Positions 2,555 through 33,307 of a DNA stretch of 64,000 bases are shown here, piece by piece. The translations under genes were made by a program, and so were the position numbers. Positions within the stretch are counted from its first letter, which is position 1. Every line of letters starts with the position of its first letter. The stretch spans positions 62,001-126,000 of the forward strand of contig BPKM01000003.1 of the NCBI GenBank assembly GCA_026005135.1, given 5' to 3'. The stretch is from Leptospiraceae bacterium. GTDB taxonomy: Bacteria; Spirochaetota; Leptospiria; Leptospirales; Leptonemataceae. Below the pieces are notes generated by a model, which was not told the origin of the DNA, did not search any database, and saw only the letters and a program-made list of their open reading frames with translations.

Positions 2555-3247
2555 ATGCCTATTAATACAGAATACAGAAAATCTAAAATCAAAAAATTCA
2601 TTACATTTTTAAAAGAAAATAAAGATGATATTGCTATACAAGAATTAGATGAAATTTTAGAAGTAATTATTGAAGAACAAAAAGAGCTTACTCCTAAATC
2701 CGAATTAAGAGAACTCATTATAGAAATGAGAGAAGGTTTTAAATCCATGGATAGGCGATTTCAAGATATTTTGCATTATATGGATAAACGATTTAATGCA
2801 ATTGATAAAAGATTTGATGAACAATTACATTATATGAATAAACGATTTGAATCAATAGATAAGAGATTTGAAGAACAACTACTATATATGAATAAACAAT
2901 TAGAATCAGTTGATAAGAGATTTGAAGAACAACTGCATTATATGGATAAACGATTTGATGCAATTGATAAAAGATTTGAGGAACAATTACATTATATGAA
3001 TAAACGATTTGAATCAATAGATAAGAAATTCGAAGAACAACTGCACTATATGGATAAACGATTTGAAGAGTTACATAAAAAAATTAATTTTTATCACTGG
3101 TTCTTAACTTCTTTTATTGCTGTAATATTTGGCTTGATTTCTTTTTTTCAGTATAATAATCTACAAAACAATCAAAATAATTTAAAAACTACACAGGAAA
3201 TGATACAAATACTTAAATCCATTGAATCCAAATTAGATAAAAAATAA
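2555..3247 (+). CDS. Tandem-repeat coiled-coil protein with C-terminal membrane anchor (DUF1640/Bdr-like layout)
   Basis: After an acidic N-terminal helical part, the protein carries about five and a half tandem 18-residue units of the form LHYMNKRFESIDKRFEEQ. These are followed by a hydrophobic segment (FLTSFIAVIFGLISFF) and a short C-terminal helix. The layout of a soluble head, long charged coiled coil and one membrane helix matches bacterial DUF1640-type proteins and is reminiscent of Borrelia Bdr proteins. Function is not known. I take ATG 2555 as start; an in-frame TTG at 2537 adds six hydrophobic residues. Repeat-number change by recombination would shorten or lengthen the stalk without breaking the frame. 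Confidence 0.7.
   Translation: MPINTEYRKSKIKKFITFLKENKDDIAIQELDEILEVIIEEQKELTPKSELRELIIEMREGFKSMDRRFQDILHYMDKRFNAIDKRFDEQLHYMNKRFESIDKRFEEQLLYMNKQLESVDKRFEEQLHYMDKRFDAIDKRFEEQLHYMNKRFESIDKKFEEQLHYMDKRFEELHKKINFYHWFLTSFIAVIFGLISFFQYNNLQNNQNNLKTTQEMIQILKSIESKLDKK
2771..3070 (+). repeat. In-frame 54-bp tandem repeats (five full copies plus a partial)
   Basis: Units start at 2771, 2825, 2879, 2933, 2987 and 3041 (partial). Each full unit encodes 18 residues. Copies 1 and 4 resemble each other, as do 2 and 5, which implies a 162-bp higher-order duplication of a three-unit block. The array lies wholly inside the coiled-coil gene. Confidence 0.9.
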
Positions 3248-3550
3248 AATTATATAGACAACGAAAGATTATATAATATAAGATTAATTTGGCTCTGTTG
3301 CATATAAATGGAATATTAAGTAAAAAATGTTTAAAAAAAGTAATAATTTGTAATATTTATTATTAATAATGATGGAAAAAGTAATAAAAAATCTTTATAT
3401 ACTTATAATTTTTTTTAAAATAAATGTAAAAAAAAGAACATTATTAAATGGAAATAAGTCAAAGTATATAGAAAAAATGTAATATGGAGGAAGAAAAGTG
3501 AAAGTAAAACAAAACAATACAATACAATACAATACAAAATAATTAAATTT
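3248..3550. other. 303-bp AT-rich intergenic stretch with a solo IS-type end and a lipoprotein leader
   Basis: Between the coiled-coil gene and the lipoprotein reading frame. A sequence GGCTCTGTTGCATA at 3291-3304 matches the left end of the MITE at 9685-9861 but has no partner end nearby, so it is a relic or a chance match. A strong ribosome-binding site GGAGG lies at 3486-3490, seven bases before GTG 3498. A (ACAAT)n tract follows at 3514-3537. No other gene is visible. Confidence 0.6.
3514..3537 (+). repeat. Pentanucleotide simple repeat (ACAAT)x4 plus partial unit, within signal-peptide codons
   Basis: Four perfect ACAAT units plus ACAA lie between a well-placed Shine-Dalgarno/GTG (3486-3490, 3498) and the hydrophobic core and lipobox of the downstream lipoprotein. 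A five-base unit changes the reading frame with each copy gained or lost. With the present copy number the GTG frame stops after 14 codons at TAA 3540-3542. One unit fewer, or two more, joins GTG to the downstream frame. Confidence 0.8.
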
Positions 3551-4321
3551 TTGTCTATTATCGGGTTAATTGGGTTAGTGGGATTTTGTGATTTTTTTAA
3601 CAAAAACAAGGATAAAAATAAAGAAAATCAAACTTTATTAGGAGCATGGTTGATCTTACAAAGCCAGAAAGAGGAAGTGGGATATTGTGATCAAGTTAGT
3701 AAATCTGATCCTGATAATGATGGACAGAATACTTATATGGTATTTTTATCTCCTTCTACTAAAAGCCAATGTGAAAATGAAAATCAACAAGATTGGAATA
3801 CGCTCAAACAGGCATTAATAGCAAAAATTGATGAAGAATTTGCTAATGATTGTACTGCAACAAAAAATTATATACAAAGTCAAAATACATTTCCAAACCA
3901 AATTAATGCTACATCAAAAAGTTTTTTTAGAACTGGAAGTTTTATCGAAGAATCTAAAAATTGGATTAAATCTTTATATAATGTAGATGATACTTTAGTA
4001 TCTTCTCTAAAAGAAGCTTCTTTAGAACAATCTTATGATGCTGGTTTATATTTATTCGTATATAACTATTCACTGCCAAATTATGCTAATGATTCAAATT
4101 GTAAAACTGCTGTAGAAACAAAATATAAATCTAAATATCCACCATCTCAATATTTGGATTTAGCAAACTGTAGATCTTCAACCTTTTATGATAACTGTAA
4201 CAATAATACATTAAATAATGGACATATTATTTTTCAAACTGGATGTGTTTATGGAGATTTACAAGTTGGAAGTAATGATTATAGTTCCCTAAAATGTTCC
4301 ACTCTAAACGAACAATTTTAA
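3551..4321 (+). CDS. Putative lipoprotein, probably phase-variable and OFF in this sequence
   Basis: The open frame encodes a hydrophobic leader (IIGLIGLVGFC) with a spirochaete-like lipobox Cys, then about 240 polar residues rich in Asn, Asp, Ser and Cys. I recognise no domain. The frame-compatible start seen here is TTG 3551, with no Shine-Dalgarno and no basic n-region. The upstream frame stays open but lacks a normal start. A GTG at 3498 with GGAGG seven bases away is out of frame through a (ACAAT)n tract. Losing one repeat gives a signal peptide beginning MKVKQNNTIQYKIIKFLS that runs straight into the lipobox. I infer a surface lipoprotein switched by slipped-strand mispairing. A rho-independent terminator follows. 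Confidence 0.65.
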   Translation: MSIIGLIGLVGFCDFFNKNKDKNKENQTLLGAWLILQSQKEEVGYCDQVSKSDPDNDGQNTYMVFLSPSTKSQCENENQQDWNTLKQALIAKIDEEFANDCTATKNYIQSQNTFPNQINATSKSFFRTGSFIEESKNWIKSLYNVDDTLVSSLKEASLEQSYDAGLYLFVYNYSLPNYANDSNCKTAVETKYKSKYPPSQYLDLANCRSSTFYDNCNNNTLNNGHIIFQTGCVYGDLQVGSNDYSSLKCSTLNEQF

Positions 4322-4332
4322 TATTCTTAATG

Positions 4333-4355
4333 CCCGCTTTAGGCGGGTTTTTTTT
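4333..4355 (+). terminator. Rho-independent terminator
   Basis: Stem CCCGC (4333-4337) and GCGGG (4343-4347) with loop TTTAG, followed by eight T residues. It ends transcription of the lipoprotein gene just before the convergent RluA-family gene. Confidence 0.88.
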
Positions 4356-4356
4356 A

Positions 4357-5025
4357 TTAAACTATTTCAAAGGGCCAATTTTGGGGAGGTTCACTTTTAA
4401 ATATCATTTCTTTTCGCAGTGTTGGATGGGTAAATTTTATTTCGTAAGCCCATAGAGCTGGAAAAGGTGTAATCTGATTATTCCCATATTTTCTATCGCC
4501 AATTAAAGGTGCTTTATAATAAGCAAATTGGAATCGTATCTGATGAAATCTTCCTGTTAAGGGATGTACTAGAAACTTATAATAGATTTTATTTTTTAAA
4601 TGTATGGTTTCGATAAGTTCATATTCTAATTCTGCTAATTTTGCTTTGGGATGATGAGGTGTTGCAGGTAATGCAATGCGTTTTTTTTCGTTTTTGATTA
4701 GATAATTTATCATTTTTCCTTTTTTTCCAATTTCGGGAATATTTTCTGTTATAGCGATATATTTTTTTTGAACAATACGATTTTTAAATTGTTCCGAAAG
4801 TCTTCTTGCAGATTTAGATGTTTTAGCAAATACCATAATACCACCTGTATTTCTATCTAATCGATGTAAAATTGCTAAATAGACATTATTTTTTTTAGTT
4901 TTTTCTTTAAGATAATCTTTTAAATAATCATATAAACTATATTGTTTTTTAATATCAGACTGAGATAGCATTCCAGCAGGCTTAGAAATAACAATAATAT
5001 GATTATCTTCGTAAATAGGATTCAT
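4357..5025 (-). CDS. RluA-family RNA pseudouridine synthase
   Basis: The 222-residue enzyme should isomerise uridine to pseudouridine in rRNA or tRNA. It begins directly with the catalytic domain (IYEDNHIIVISKPAGML) and has no N-terminal S4 domain. The catalytic Asp lies in HRLDRNTGGIMVFAKT at about residues 52-67, followed by KKYIAI and the late motif HPLTGRFHQIRFQFAY, typical of the RluA/RluC/RluD/TruC group. The specific target cannot be read from sequence. It sits three bases downstream of the hypothetical exported protein gene (5029-5721) on the same strand and is probably cotranscribed with it. Confidence 0.88.
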   Translation of the reverse strand: MNPIYEDNHIIVISKPAGMLSQSDIKKQYSLYDYLKDYLKEKTKKNNVYLAILHRLDRNTGGIMVFAKTSKSARRLSEQFKNRIVQKKYIAITENIPEIGKKGKMINYLIKNEKKRIALPATPHHPKAKLAELEYELIETIHLKNKIYYKFLVHPLTGRFHQIRFQFAYYKAPLIGDRKYGNNQITPFPALWAYEIKFTHPTLRKEMIFKSEPPQNWPFEIV

Positions 5026-28205: not shown

Positions 28206-28571
28206 ATGTTAAAAGAAGTTTTAACAACAAATCATATTATTTATTTTCTTATAGAAGAAAATATAAAAATGGAAAATGCCCCGATTTTTTATGATGAATT
28301 TATAAAAAGTAATGATTATTTAGGGAAAAAAGTTTTTTTTGATTTTTCTAAAATCAATTTTATAGATAGTTCTGGTATTGGTATTTTAATTCGTTGTGCT
28401 GATTATTTAAGAGAACGTTCTTCAGAATTAATATTTGTTAGTGTAAATAAGTCTATGAATACAGTATTTCGTCTTGCTGGTTTAAATCAATTTTTTTATA
28501 TTATAGAAAAAGAAGAATTAAATCAATATTTAAAAAAAGAGGAGTTAGAAAAGGTTGCATCTAACCGATAA
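28206..28571 (+). CDS. STAS-domain protein (anti-sigma factor antagonist type)
   Basis: The 121-residue protein is essentially a single STAS domain. VFFDFSKINFIDSSGIGILIRCADYLRERSSELIFVSVN holds the DSSG motif with the Ser that is phosphorylated in SpoIIAA/RsbV proteins, and NTVFRLAGLNQFFYI completes the fold. It should bind an anti-sigma kinase when unphosphorylated. No kinase partner is adjacent; the SpoIIE-type phosphatase at 37864-39957 is a possible opponent elsewhere in the window. The latter link is inference. Confidence 0.88.
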   Translation: MLKEVLTTNHIIYFLIEENIKMENAPIFYDEFIKSNDYLGKKVFFDFSKINFIDSSGIGILIRCADYLRERSSELIFVSVNKSMNTVFRLAGLNQFFYIIEKEELNQYLKKEELEKVASNR

Positions 28572-28578
28572 TAAATAT

Positions 28579-29371
28579 ATGAAACATTTATATATTTCCT
28601 TTTTAATTTTATTTATTTTAAGTTGTTCTTCTGGTTTTTATAAAAAAGAAAGAATTTATCTTTCTGATAATATAGCACTATATCTAATAGATGAAAATGA
28701 TTATCCAGAAGAAGAAATTAAACAATATTTAAATCCAGTACAAAAATTTCCAGATAATGCAATAGAAAATATAAGTCTTGTATTAGCTAATTTAGAAGTA
28801 GAAAAAGAAGGCATTTTTAGTAAGGATATCTTATCCTCTTGTTTATCCTTTACAATTAGAACAAATTCAAAATATTTTAAAAGAAATTATTCCTAAGGTA
28901 CCTGCTGGAAAACGCATATTAATAGTTCAGAAATTTGATCCTTTTAGAACAGTACTAAGTAAAGAAAAACGTTCTACAATGTTAATCTGGTATGATGCTG
29001 ATGGTTATAATATTGTTTTTGGAGAAATTCATGAAGATTTATTACCAGATAATTTTGCAACAGAAACGGATTGGTTAGATATTTTTCCTGTTTCTTTAAA
29101 ACAGGGTAATCCAGATCAAAAAATCATAAAAACAGAATTTATAGAATATAAAAAAATAGGAGATTTTGTTCATTACAGTTGGATTGTATTTCAAGATAAA
29201 AATATTGAGACTTTAAAAAATGAATTAACTAGTAAAGAAAATTCTTCACAAAGCGAAAAATCTTCATCTATAGAGGAACGTTTAAAAAAATTACAGGATT
29301 TATATAATAAAAAACTTATAACCAAAGAAGAATACGAACAAAGAAAAAAAGCTATTTTAGAGGAATTATAA
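28579..29371 (+). pseudogene. SHOCT-domain lipoprotein gene with one frameshift
   Basis: ATG 28579 opens a lipoprotein leader (LILFILSCSSGFYKKE) and runs to residue about 83 (EKEGIFSKD). A frameshift near 28827 then moves coding to the next frame, which continues ISYPLVYPLQLEQIQNILKEIIPKVPAGKRILIVQKFDPF, IWYDADGYNIVFGEIHEDLL, and ends in the SHOCT motif EERLKKLQDLYNKKLITKEEYEQRKKAILEEL. The two halves give a coherent protein of about 264 residues. The unframed first piece ends at 28896 and the second opens at 28979 with an internal ATG. Either a pseudogene or a sequencing error. Eight bases separate it from the STAS gene. Confidence 0.72.
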
Positions 29372-30073: not shown

Positions 30074-33000
30074 TTAATTTTTTTCATGTAATGGTCCAAA
30101 TTTTCTTTTTTTATATAAATAAATCTGGATTAATTCATATATGATTGGTATAATAATCAAAGTAAGTATGGTAGAGGTTATTAATCCCCCAATCATAGGA
30201 ACAGCTAAACGTTTCATTATACGTGAACCAGCTTCTGTGGACCACATAATAGGTAATAATCCAATAAGAGTTGTAGAAACTGTCATCATTTTTGGACGTA
30301 CTCTCATTACTGCTCCTTCTATAATAGCATCTCTAATATCTTCTATTGTTATTGAAGTTTTGTTTTTGAGTAAATGTTTTATTGCTCCATCTAAATATAC
30401 TAACATAACAATTCCAGTCTCTGCTGCAAGACCCCCAAGAGCAATAAAACCCACATCAGTTGCAACAGAGCGATTATATCCTAACAAATACATTAACCAT
30501 ATTCCACCTGTTAAAGAAAAAACAACAGAAATTAAAATAATAAAAGTTTCTGTCCAGTTTCTAAAATGGAAATAAAGTAAAAATATAATACCAATAATGG
30601 TTAAAAAAGCTGCAAATGAGAGTTGATCTTTTACTTTTTCAATTTGTTCATATTGGCCACTCCATACAATTGACATACCAGAATAAAAAGGAATTTCTTT
30701 TTTTTCTATTGCTTCTAAGATCATATTTTTAGCAGATTCTACATAACTTTTTACATCATATCCCTGTTTTAAATCAACATAAATCCAGGCAGTTTTCCTT
30801 GCATTTTCTGTTTTAATAGCAGGTGGACCTTCTTTAATTTCTATATCTGCTACCTGACTTAAAGGTATATAATTGACGGTTTTAAATTTTGTATTCATCT
30901 TATTGGAATTTGGTAAATCAATCCATAAGTTTTTAATTTTTTCTGGGGTATCTCGAAGTTCTCTTGGATATCGAATTACAATAGGATACCGTTCTGTACC
31001 TTCTACAGTTATTGTGACTGGCATACCTGCTAATAAAGCTCTTAAATGATTTTGTATATCTTCAACAGTTAAGCCATATTGTAAGGCTTTATCCCGTTTT
31101 ATATAAATATTTAAATATTTTCCTCCCATAACTCTTTCTGCTATAACAGAAGATGTTCCGGGAAAATTTTGCAACTTTGCTTCTATAAAAGAGGCAACTT
31201 CCATTAATTGATTTAAATCATTTCCCATTAATTTGATTCCAACAGGAGTTTTAATACCAGTAGATAACATATCAATACGTGTTCTAATAGGAAATGTCCA
31301 TGCATTGGTAAGACCGGGAATTTTAACCTTTTGATTTAATTCTTCTATAATTTTTTCTATCGTCATACCTGGTCGCCATTCGGATTCTGGTTTTAATTGA
31401 ATGGTTGTTTCTATCATAGTAAGTGGAGCTGGATCAGTTGCTGTTTCTGCACGCCCGATTTTTCCTAAAACTGTATCGACTTCTGGAATTTCTTTAATAA
31501 GTTGATCTGTTTTTTGTAAAATTTCTTTCGCTTTAGTTATAGAAATACCTGGAAGAGTTGTGGGCATATATAATAAATCCCCTTCATTTAAAGGAGGCAT
31601 AAATTCTCCTCCAATAGGTTTTAATATATATCCACCTCCTGGTTTGGGGATACCTAAAAATGGAATAAAAGAAATGATAGTAAATGTAATTGCAAAAAGT
31701 AAAAATTTTGATTTTCGTTCCAGTGCAAATAATAAAATAGGTTTATAAATTTTAATTAAAAATTTAGAAATAGGATTTTCCGATTCAGAACGAATTTTAC
31801 CTTTTACAAAGCGAAACATAAGAACTGGAATTACTGTTATTGCTAATATAGAAGCATAAGCCATAGCAAACGTTTTTGTAATAGCAAGTGGTTTAAATAA
31901 ACGACCAGATTCTCCTTTTAATAACAAAACGGGTAAAAAAGAAATCGTTACAATCAATAATGAATAAAATAAAGATGGACCAACTTCAATAGATGATTCT
32001 TTAACAAGATTAAAAAAATTATCAGGATGATAGGGATCCTTACTTTTTTCTATATGTTTATGAAGATTCTCTACAAGAACAACCGAAGCATCTACCATTA
32101 CACCAATAGCAATAGCAATACCTCCAAGACTCATAATATTAGCATTGATATCCATAAAATACATAGTGATTAACGATGCCAGTACACCTAAGGGGAGAGT
32201 AAAAATTGCAACAAAAGAAGATCGAAAATGTAATAAGAAAACAGTTATAACAATAGAAACAACTATCATTTCTTCGATTAATTTCCATGATACATTTTTA
32301 ACTGCTCTTTTAATTAATTTTGAACGATCATAAGCTGGGATAATTTTTACTCCTTCTGGTAATAAAGGTTCAATTTCTTTTAATCGTTTTTTAACTCTAT
32401 CAATAACTTCTAAGGTATTTTCGCCATAACGAGCAATTACAATACCAGCAACAGCTTCTCCTTCTCCATTCCATTCAATTATTCCACGTCTTGTAGAAGG
32501 ACCTACATAAACATTTGCAACATCGTCAATTGTAACAGGATTTCCTTCTTTAAGATCAACTTTTAAAGGAATATTTTTAATATCATCAATAGATTTAATA
32601 TATCCAAGACCTCTAACCATATATTCTGTTTCGCCCATTTCAATTACACCACCACCAACATCTATATTCCCTTTACTTAATGCCATCTGTATATCTTTTA
32701 ACGTTATATTATTTAATAACATTTTTTCTGGATAAGGTTCTACATAATATTGTTTTACAAATCCACCAGCAGAAGCAACTTCCGATACACCTTCTAATGC
32801 GATAAGTTCATATCTTAAATACCAGTCCTGTAAGCTTCGCAACTGTTGGAGATCATATTTACCAGTAGTATCTATCAATGCATACATATAGACCCAACCG
32901 ACACCTGTTGCATCTGGACCAATTTGGGGAGTGACACCCTTAGGTAAATATTGCGAAGCATAATTTAAATATTCTAAAACTCTACTACGTGCATAATATA

Positions 33001-33307
33001 AATCTGTTCCATCTTCGAATATTACATAAACCAAAGAAAAACCAAAAAACGAATATCCGCGTACTACTTTTGCAAAAGGAACAGCAAGCATTGCAGAAGA
33101 AAGAGGATAGGTTACCTGATCTTCTACTACCTGTGGTGCCTGTCCAGGATATTGAGTATAAATAATTACCTGAACATCAGACAAATCTGGTATAGCATCT
33201 ATAGGGATTTTTTTTATAGTATAAAATCCCAATATAAATATTAATCCTGCTGCAATAAATATGAATATCTGGTTTTTTAAGGAAAATTCAATTATTTTTC
33301 TTATCAT
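30074..33307 (-). CDS. cusA: CusA-type heavy-metal RND efflux transporter
   Basis: The 1077-residue inner-membrane antiporter has the RND layout: an N-terminal helix, a large periplasmic loop (to about 335), a first helix bundle with GGIAIAIGVMVDASVVLVENLHKH, a second periplasmic loop and a C-terminal bundle. The signature DASVVLVEN..KH and RIDMLSTGIKTPVGIKL in the second loop match the monovalent-cation (Cu+/Ag+) CusA group rather than CzcA, including the Met in RIDML that corresponds to the copper-binding region. It should take metal from the periplasm or cytoplasm using the proton gradient and pass it through CusB and CusC. AGGAG precedes its ATG, downstream of a GC-rich repeat. Confidence 0.93.
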   Translation of the reverse strand: MIRKIIEFSLKNQIFIFIAAGLIFILGFYTIKKIPIDAIPDLSDVQVIIYTQYPGQAPQVVEDQVTYPLSSAMLAVPFAKVVRGYSFFGFSLVYVIFEDGTDLYYARSRVLEYLNYASQYLPKGVTPQIGPDATGVGWVYMYALIDTTGKYDLQQLRSLQDWYLRYELIALEGVSEVASAGGFVKQYYVEPYPEKMLLNNITLKDIQMALSKGNIDVGGGVIEMGETEYMVRGLGYIKSIDDIKNIPLKVDLKEGNPVTIDDVANVYVGPSTRRGIIEWNGEGEAVAGIVIARYGENTLEVIDRVKKRLKEIEPLLPEGVKIIPAYDRSKLIKRAVKNVSWKLIEEMIVVSIVITVFLLHFRSSFVAIFTLPLGVLASLITMYFMDINANIMSLGGIAIAIGVMVDASVVLVENLHKHIEKSKDPYHPDNFFNLVKESSIEVGPSLFYSLLIVTISFLPVLLLKGESGRLFKPLAITKTFAMAYASILAITVIPVLMFRFVKGKIRSESENPISKFLIKIYKPILLFALERKSKFLLFAITFTIISFIPFLGIPKPGGGYILKPIGGEFMPPLNEGDLLYMPTTLPGISITKAKEILQKTDQLIKEIPEVDTVLGKIGRAETATDPAPLTMIETTIQLKPESEWRPGMTIEKIIEELNQKVKIPGLTNAWTFPIRTRIDMLSTGIKTPVGIKLMGNDLNQLMEVASFIEAKLQNFPGTSSVIAERVMGGKYLNIYIKRDKALQYGLTVEDIQNHLRALLAGMPVTITVEGTERYPIVIRYPRELRDTPEKIKNLWIDLPNSNKMNTKFKTVNYIPLSQVADIEIKEGPPAIKTENARKTAWIYVDLKQGYDVKSYVESAKNMILEAIEKKEIPFYSGMSIVWSGQYEQIEKVKDQLSFAAFLTIIGIIFLLYFHFRNWTETFIILISVVFSLTGGIWLMYLLGYNRSVATDVGFIALGGLAAETGIVMLVYLDGAIKHLLKNKTSITIEDIRDAIIEGAVMRVRPKMMTVSTTLIGLLPIMWSTEAGSRIMKRLAVPMIGGLITSTILTLIIIPIIYELIQIYLYKKRKFGPLHEKN

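Follow-up and report, generated by a model that had tools for sequence, protein, structure and literature searches.

The window analysed here (64,000 nucleotides of a contig from a Leptospiraceae bacterium) contains on its forward strand a lipoprotein-type gene whose probable start codon, GTG 3498, is put out of frame with the rest of the gene by a short tract of the pentamer ACAAT. We consider it a plausible candidate for a contingency locus. The best explanation, which we put forward tentatively, is that the gene is translated from GTG 3498 and undergoes low-frequency, reversible on/off switching by slipped-strand mispairing; the most far-reaching claim, that an uncultured Leptospiraceae-type bacterium switches a lipoprotein by means of a pentamer-repeat contingency locus, seems to us rather doubtful.

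Reading frames and start site of the lipoprotein-type gene

A ribosome-binding site, GGAGG (3486-3490), lies within ATGGAGGAA upstream of GTG 3498, and the frame opened by this codon (3498-3542) ends after 14 codons at TAA 3540-3542, which makes it the product of the sequence as assembled. Sixteen bases, beginning with the GTG, precede the first unit of the tract, which is pure and consists of four ACAAT units (3514-3533) followed by ACAA (to 3537), 4.8 units in all; TRF calls it at 3509-3537 as 5.8 imperfect copies with a score of 51. The sequence-only reading had described the ribosome-binding site, the GTG, the stop, the four units and a leader in a different frame, and each of these was confirmed at its position. 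The leader (KIIKFLSIIGLIGLVGFC) shares one frame, not that of the GTG, with the ORF of 256 codons that extends from TTG 3551, its first listed start, to 4321. This frame is open over 258 codons (3542-4321), with no stop in it vs 15 and 40 stops in the other two frames, which we count in favour of a switch. By frame arithmetic, GTG 3498 joins the frame of the leader if the count of full ACAAT units is divisible by three; this sequence has four, and the earlier claim that one unit fewer gives a continuous frame into the leader agrees with this. If GTG 3498 is taken as the start, the lipoprotein-type gene is thus out of frame in this sequence, and in this sense the OFF state that had been proposed is supported for the gene as assembled.

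As to the start codon itself, GTG 3498 is probably the true one. Among the three candidates (GTG 3498, ATT 3542 and TTG 3551) it alone has a Shine-Dalgarno match, a point for the switch, and we take it as the start because ATGGAGGAA, common to the window and to a distant homologue in the sister genome G003, is located there just upstream of an ATG (the start region reads ATGGAGGAAAAAGATG in the homologue vs ATGGAGGAAGAAAAGTG in the window). A candidate start could be scored in 204 of the 210 long ORFs; 64 of the 204 have a Shine-Dalgarno match of at least four bases and 34 one of at least five, and GTG was the best start in one of them, by a rough count in which ties favour ATG. Such rarity of GTG starts makes the case for GTG 3498 somewhat weaker. 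A promoter scan gave 14 matches vs 16.5 in shuffled sequences, and a terminator scan gave one vs a mean of 0.2, this one being a terminator-like hairpin (4332-4348) with a T run (4332-4355 in total), ten bases downstream of the stop codon.

The open ORF with a signal peptide, predicted from the sequence before any search was made, is supported, and homologues of it exist. Its coding score (0.12-0.14) is close to 0.126, the 25th percentile for 227 long ORFs, and the signal is present in both halves. The signal-peptide core and a lipobox-like LVGFC occupy 3542-3589, the Cys codon (3587-3589) being preceded by Phe and followed by Asp. The description of this signal peptide as a textbook one holds for the basic n-region, the hydrophobic core and the cysteine, which is conserved in all three aligned proteins, but not for the lipobox: the residue directly before the lipobox Cys is usually G, A or S, whereas it is Phe in the window and in G003 (LTGFC) and Asn in G002. 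Phe before Cys recurs in two other entries (L025 and L180) of our list of lipoprotein-like sequences; as the search pattern behind this list allowed Phe, the recurrence is no more than a lead. We infer that the protein is surface-exposed. No family in Pfam or NCBIfam matched it above the cut-off; Spiralin, the best match, reached only E 0.021 (15.8 bits vs a cut-off of 25) and was rejected, as were the best PDB profile match (E 0.3, taken as chance) and an AlphaFold2 model, which covered just the mature part and was too uncertain for use (mean pLDDT 38.7).

The ACAAT tract and the proposed switch

The repeat in the n-region is not a product of chance, as both a survey of the genome and simulations indicate; we count this, its being the longest pentamer tract of the sample, its position in the n-region and the logic of the frames in favour of the switch. 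In 821 kb (24% of the genome) nine pentamer tracts of at least three units were found, eight of them with three, and the ACAAT tract is the only one with at least four; in a smaller sample, 404 kb that comprise the window, it is the only period-5 tract longer than 17 bases. No four-unit pentamer tract arose in 12 Mb each of sequence simulated by Markov models of orders 3 and 5 trained on these 404 kb, while an earlier run (orders 1, 3 and 5, 2 Mb each) produced a single 20-base tract, under the model of order 5, and no 24-base one. Four exact ACAAT units in a row are present in one of 22 genomes of the family, namely that of the window. Given its rarity in the genome and in the simulations, slippage or duplication is the most likely origin of the tract.

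The proposed mechanism is as follows. A small lipoprotein-type gene would be translated from GTG 3498, and slippage would have enlarged the ACAAT tract within the stretch that codes for the basic n-region of the signal peptide, where added residues should be tolerated. Every unit gained or lost would shift the downstream frame, so that the protein would be made only at unit numbers that are multiples of three, and the assembled state, with four units, would be OFF. Five, the length of the unit, is not divisible by three, and, if GTG 3498 is the start, (ACAAT)4 lies inside the coding region; other unit numbers restore, by frame arithmetic, an ORF that has no stops and carries a coding signal. 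We infer that the length of the tract changes in nature and is under selection; that a fraction of the population has the gene ON is a guess.

The length of the tract can be compared with a survey of Neisseria, in which mutability rises with repeat number and CTTCT is a predominant repeat (PMC5953494). For pentamers, its text and table both give a cut-off of five units; one phrase of the text, however, applies a cut-off of three to unit lengths from 5 to 9, where the table has 6 to 9 (PMC5953494). The four full units found here (4.8 in all) are under five, which on that reading we count against the switch, and by the one phrase they would pass; a cut-off of this sort is a convention for surveys and sets no biochemical limit. 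In the 821 kb, the tracts that reach the numbers of that paper are three poly-A/T tracts of 11-12 and three hexamers of three copies, G/C, tetramer and pentamer tracts that reach them being absent; dinucleotides of up to 6 copies (four tracts) and one trinucleotide of 6 pass the 6 of the table and fail the 8 of the text. We count against the switch that the sampled 24% of the genome contains no second four-unit pentamer tract, and also that the genome encodes a protein with a MutS_III domain.

The arrangement resembles two well-known systems, to neither of which it is homologous. In the opa genes of Neisseria pentamer repeats sit in the part coding for the signal peptide and, as would be the case here, determine from within the leader whether a surface protein is read in frame; the opa tracts, however, are longer and vary between strains, whereas here we have four full units in one gene. 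In contingency loci of the Haemophilus lic1 type, CAAT repeats follow shortly after the start and the frame decides on expression; the likeness lies in an A/C/T repeat soon after the start codon, and the difference in the repeat being a tetramer there, with many more units and with demonstrated switching, and a pentamer of four full units here. Among the matches listed in the literature on phase variation in Leptospira and spirochetes (titles and abstract openings), no such locus is named for this lineage. If the switch is real, repeat-driven switching of envelope proteins would extend to uncultured relatives of Leptospira, and the question would arise which selective force maintains it in them; besides immunity, phages or grazers come into consideration.

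Homologues and other explanations of the out-of-frame state

With the window protein as query, a homologue was found on contig C6 of G003 (from 85644; E 5.1e-6). Another, on contig C7 of G002 (97485-98294; E 4.4e-8), was missed by the single-protein search and retrieved with a two-row profile. The window protein, that of G002 and part of that of G003 align at about 34% identity, with a signal peptide followed by shared motifs, and together with a weak match in G022 they represent the lipoprotein-type family of the lineage. The existence of an unbroken homologue of 270 residues in G002, with the C-terminal end KCTSLNEEF vs KCSTLNEQF in the window protein, counts in favour of the switch. In contrast to the window gene, both homologues have an ATG start (preceded by AGGAGG in G002), a short n-region and no tract. 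The absence of the tract from the starts of these two closest homologues counts against the switch. The G003 homologue is moreover frameshifted, away from any repeat and near the end of its contig, which may reflect decay or a sequence error.

No homologue was detected in G001 by single-protein, profile or class-wide searches, and a pattern scan of genome contigs gave 32 matches, none of them confirmed. Among the first 100 genomes three have a match at E<=0.01; this genome is one of the three, and another is marginal (E 0.009). The class-wide search gave a match at E<=0.1 in 14 of 48 genomes; of 22 matches nine were inspected by eye, one of which was G002. The weak match in G022 (L150, contig C2, E 1.1e-5) seems to be distantly related, and another class-wide match (L149, E 8.5e-6) contains one stop. 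Five candidates (L152, L156, L158, L162 and L165) were rejected, as they seem to be other lipoproteins having the signal peptide in common with ours, and L154 looks different. L122 and L123, considered as truncated paralogues, are really small lipoprotein-type genes upstream of a different gene.

The first rival to switching, in our view somewhat unlikely, is a null allele made by slippage: growth of the tract would have thrown the gene out of frame in this lineage, and the gene would lately have been lost or be drifting, with no switch maintained. The shortness of the tract and its isolation in the sample agree with this, as do the frameshift in the G003 copy and the patchy distribution of the family, which within the genus has matches in this genome, G002 and G003 and none in G001. 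The surroundings of the gene point the same way. Gene order is kept in G003 from the rluA-like gene (4357-5025) to about 12.6 kb, and the YidD, 970-1548 and methyltransferase genes (together 645-2480) are on the same G003 contig; the distance from the methyltransferase gene to the rluA-like gene, however, is about 11 kb in G003 vs 1.9 kb in the window. In the window it is filled by a coiled-coil gene and the lipoprotein gene, while the large ORFs of the G003 interval (L014, 9.6-13.7 kb) look like restriction-modification genes, which places the lipoprotein gene in an interval variable between genomes. Against a null allele, the gene exhibits no decay beyond its frame: it has no stops, a coding signal in both halves and a terminator that has been kept.

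An error of consensus or assembly, whereby the true genome would have another number of units and the gene would simply be in frame, is unlikely. The genome is a draft (18 contigs, 94% complete), and other genes in it are out of frame too. One of them (28549-29368) is split into two frames by one break near 28.8 kb, its G003 copy being a single open frame (L142, 12983-13798); the other, the gene behind the small lipoprotein-type gene of L122 (contig C1 of this genome, near 867478), has two breaks. G003 also has breaks, at L004 and at L123 (contig C13, near 43952), the latter with the same gene arrangement as L122 and with the breaks at other places. Stray frame changes thus occur in these assemblies or genomes; those of L122 and L123 may be decay or assembly indels, and that of 28549-29368 decay or a sequence error. 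No tract like that of ACAAT was found at the breaks in 28549-29368 or L122, and, since this genome has two further genes that have lost their frame in the absence of any repeat, the out-of-frame state alone is no sign of a switch. We count such repeat-free breaks, including the one in the G003 copy, against the switch, as decay or an error in the sequence explains them equally well, and they make both the null allele and a consensus error rivals to be taken seriously. On the other hand, a tract of 24-29 bases is short enough to be spanned by single reads, the usual error concerns a single base and not an entire unit of five, and of the 19 window genes that have a good homologue on the G003 contig 18 show no break (antisense matches and weak partial ones excluded, the two halves at 28.8 kb, which make the 19th, counted as one gene). 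The split gene, too, starts with a lipoprotein-like leader.

Least probable, and quite improbable in itself, is that the protein is made despite the tract, either by re-initiation at ATT 3542, which overlaps the stop 3540-3542 by one base, or at the nearby downstream TTG 3551, or through tRNA-Lys slipping back (-1) on A AAA TAA (3536-3542), where four A (3536-3539) would permit re-pairing of the Lys codon one base back, into the lipoprotein frame; but ATT starts are rare and weak, neither codon has a ribosome-site match, the leader from TTG is devoid of a basic residue, and the leader RNA (3470-3620) shows no folding beyond that of shuffled versions. If the preferred reading, reversible switching from GTG 3498, is wrong, the locus illustrates that, as long as only one genome is available, a single event of slippage or an error in the consensus may pass for a switch.

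Two other proteins of the window deserve mention. The coiled-coil protein upstream (2579-3247), which has no Pfam or NCBIfam family above the cut-off, is encoded by a gene with a 54-base tandem repeat (5.4 copies, 84% matches) and has a hydrophobic segment at its C-terminal end, a layout that we take to be reminiscent of the Bdr proteins of Borrelia. As for the protein of 1,076 residues (30074-33304), its closest named record is from Leptospiraceae bacterium SKW199 (81%).
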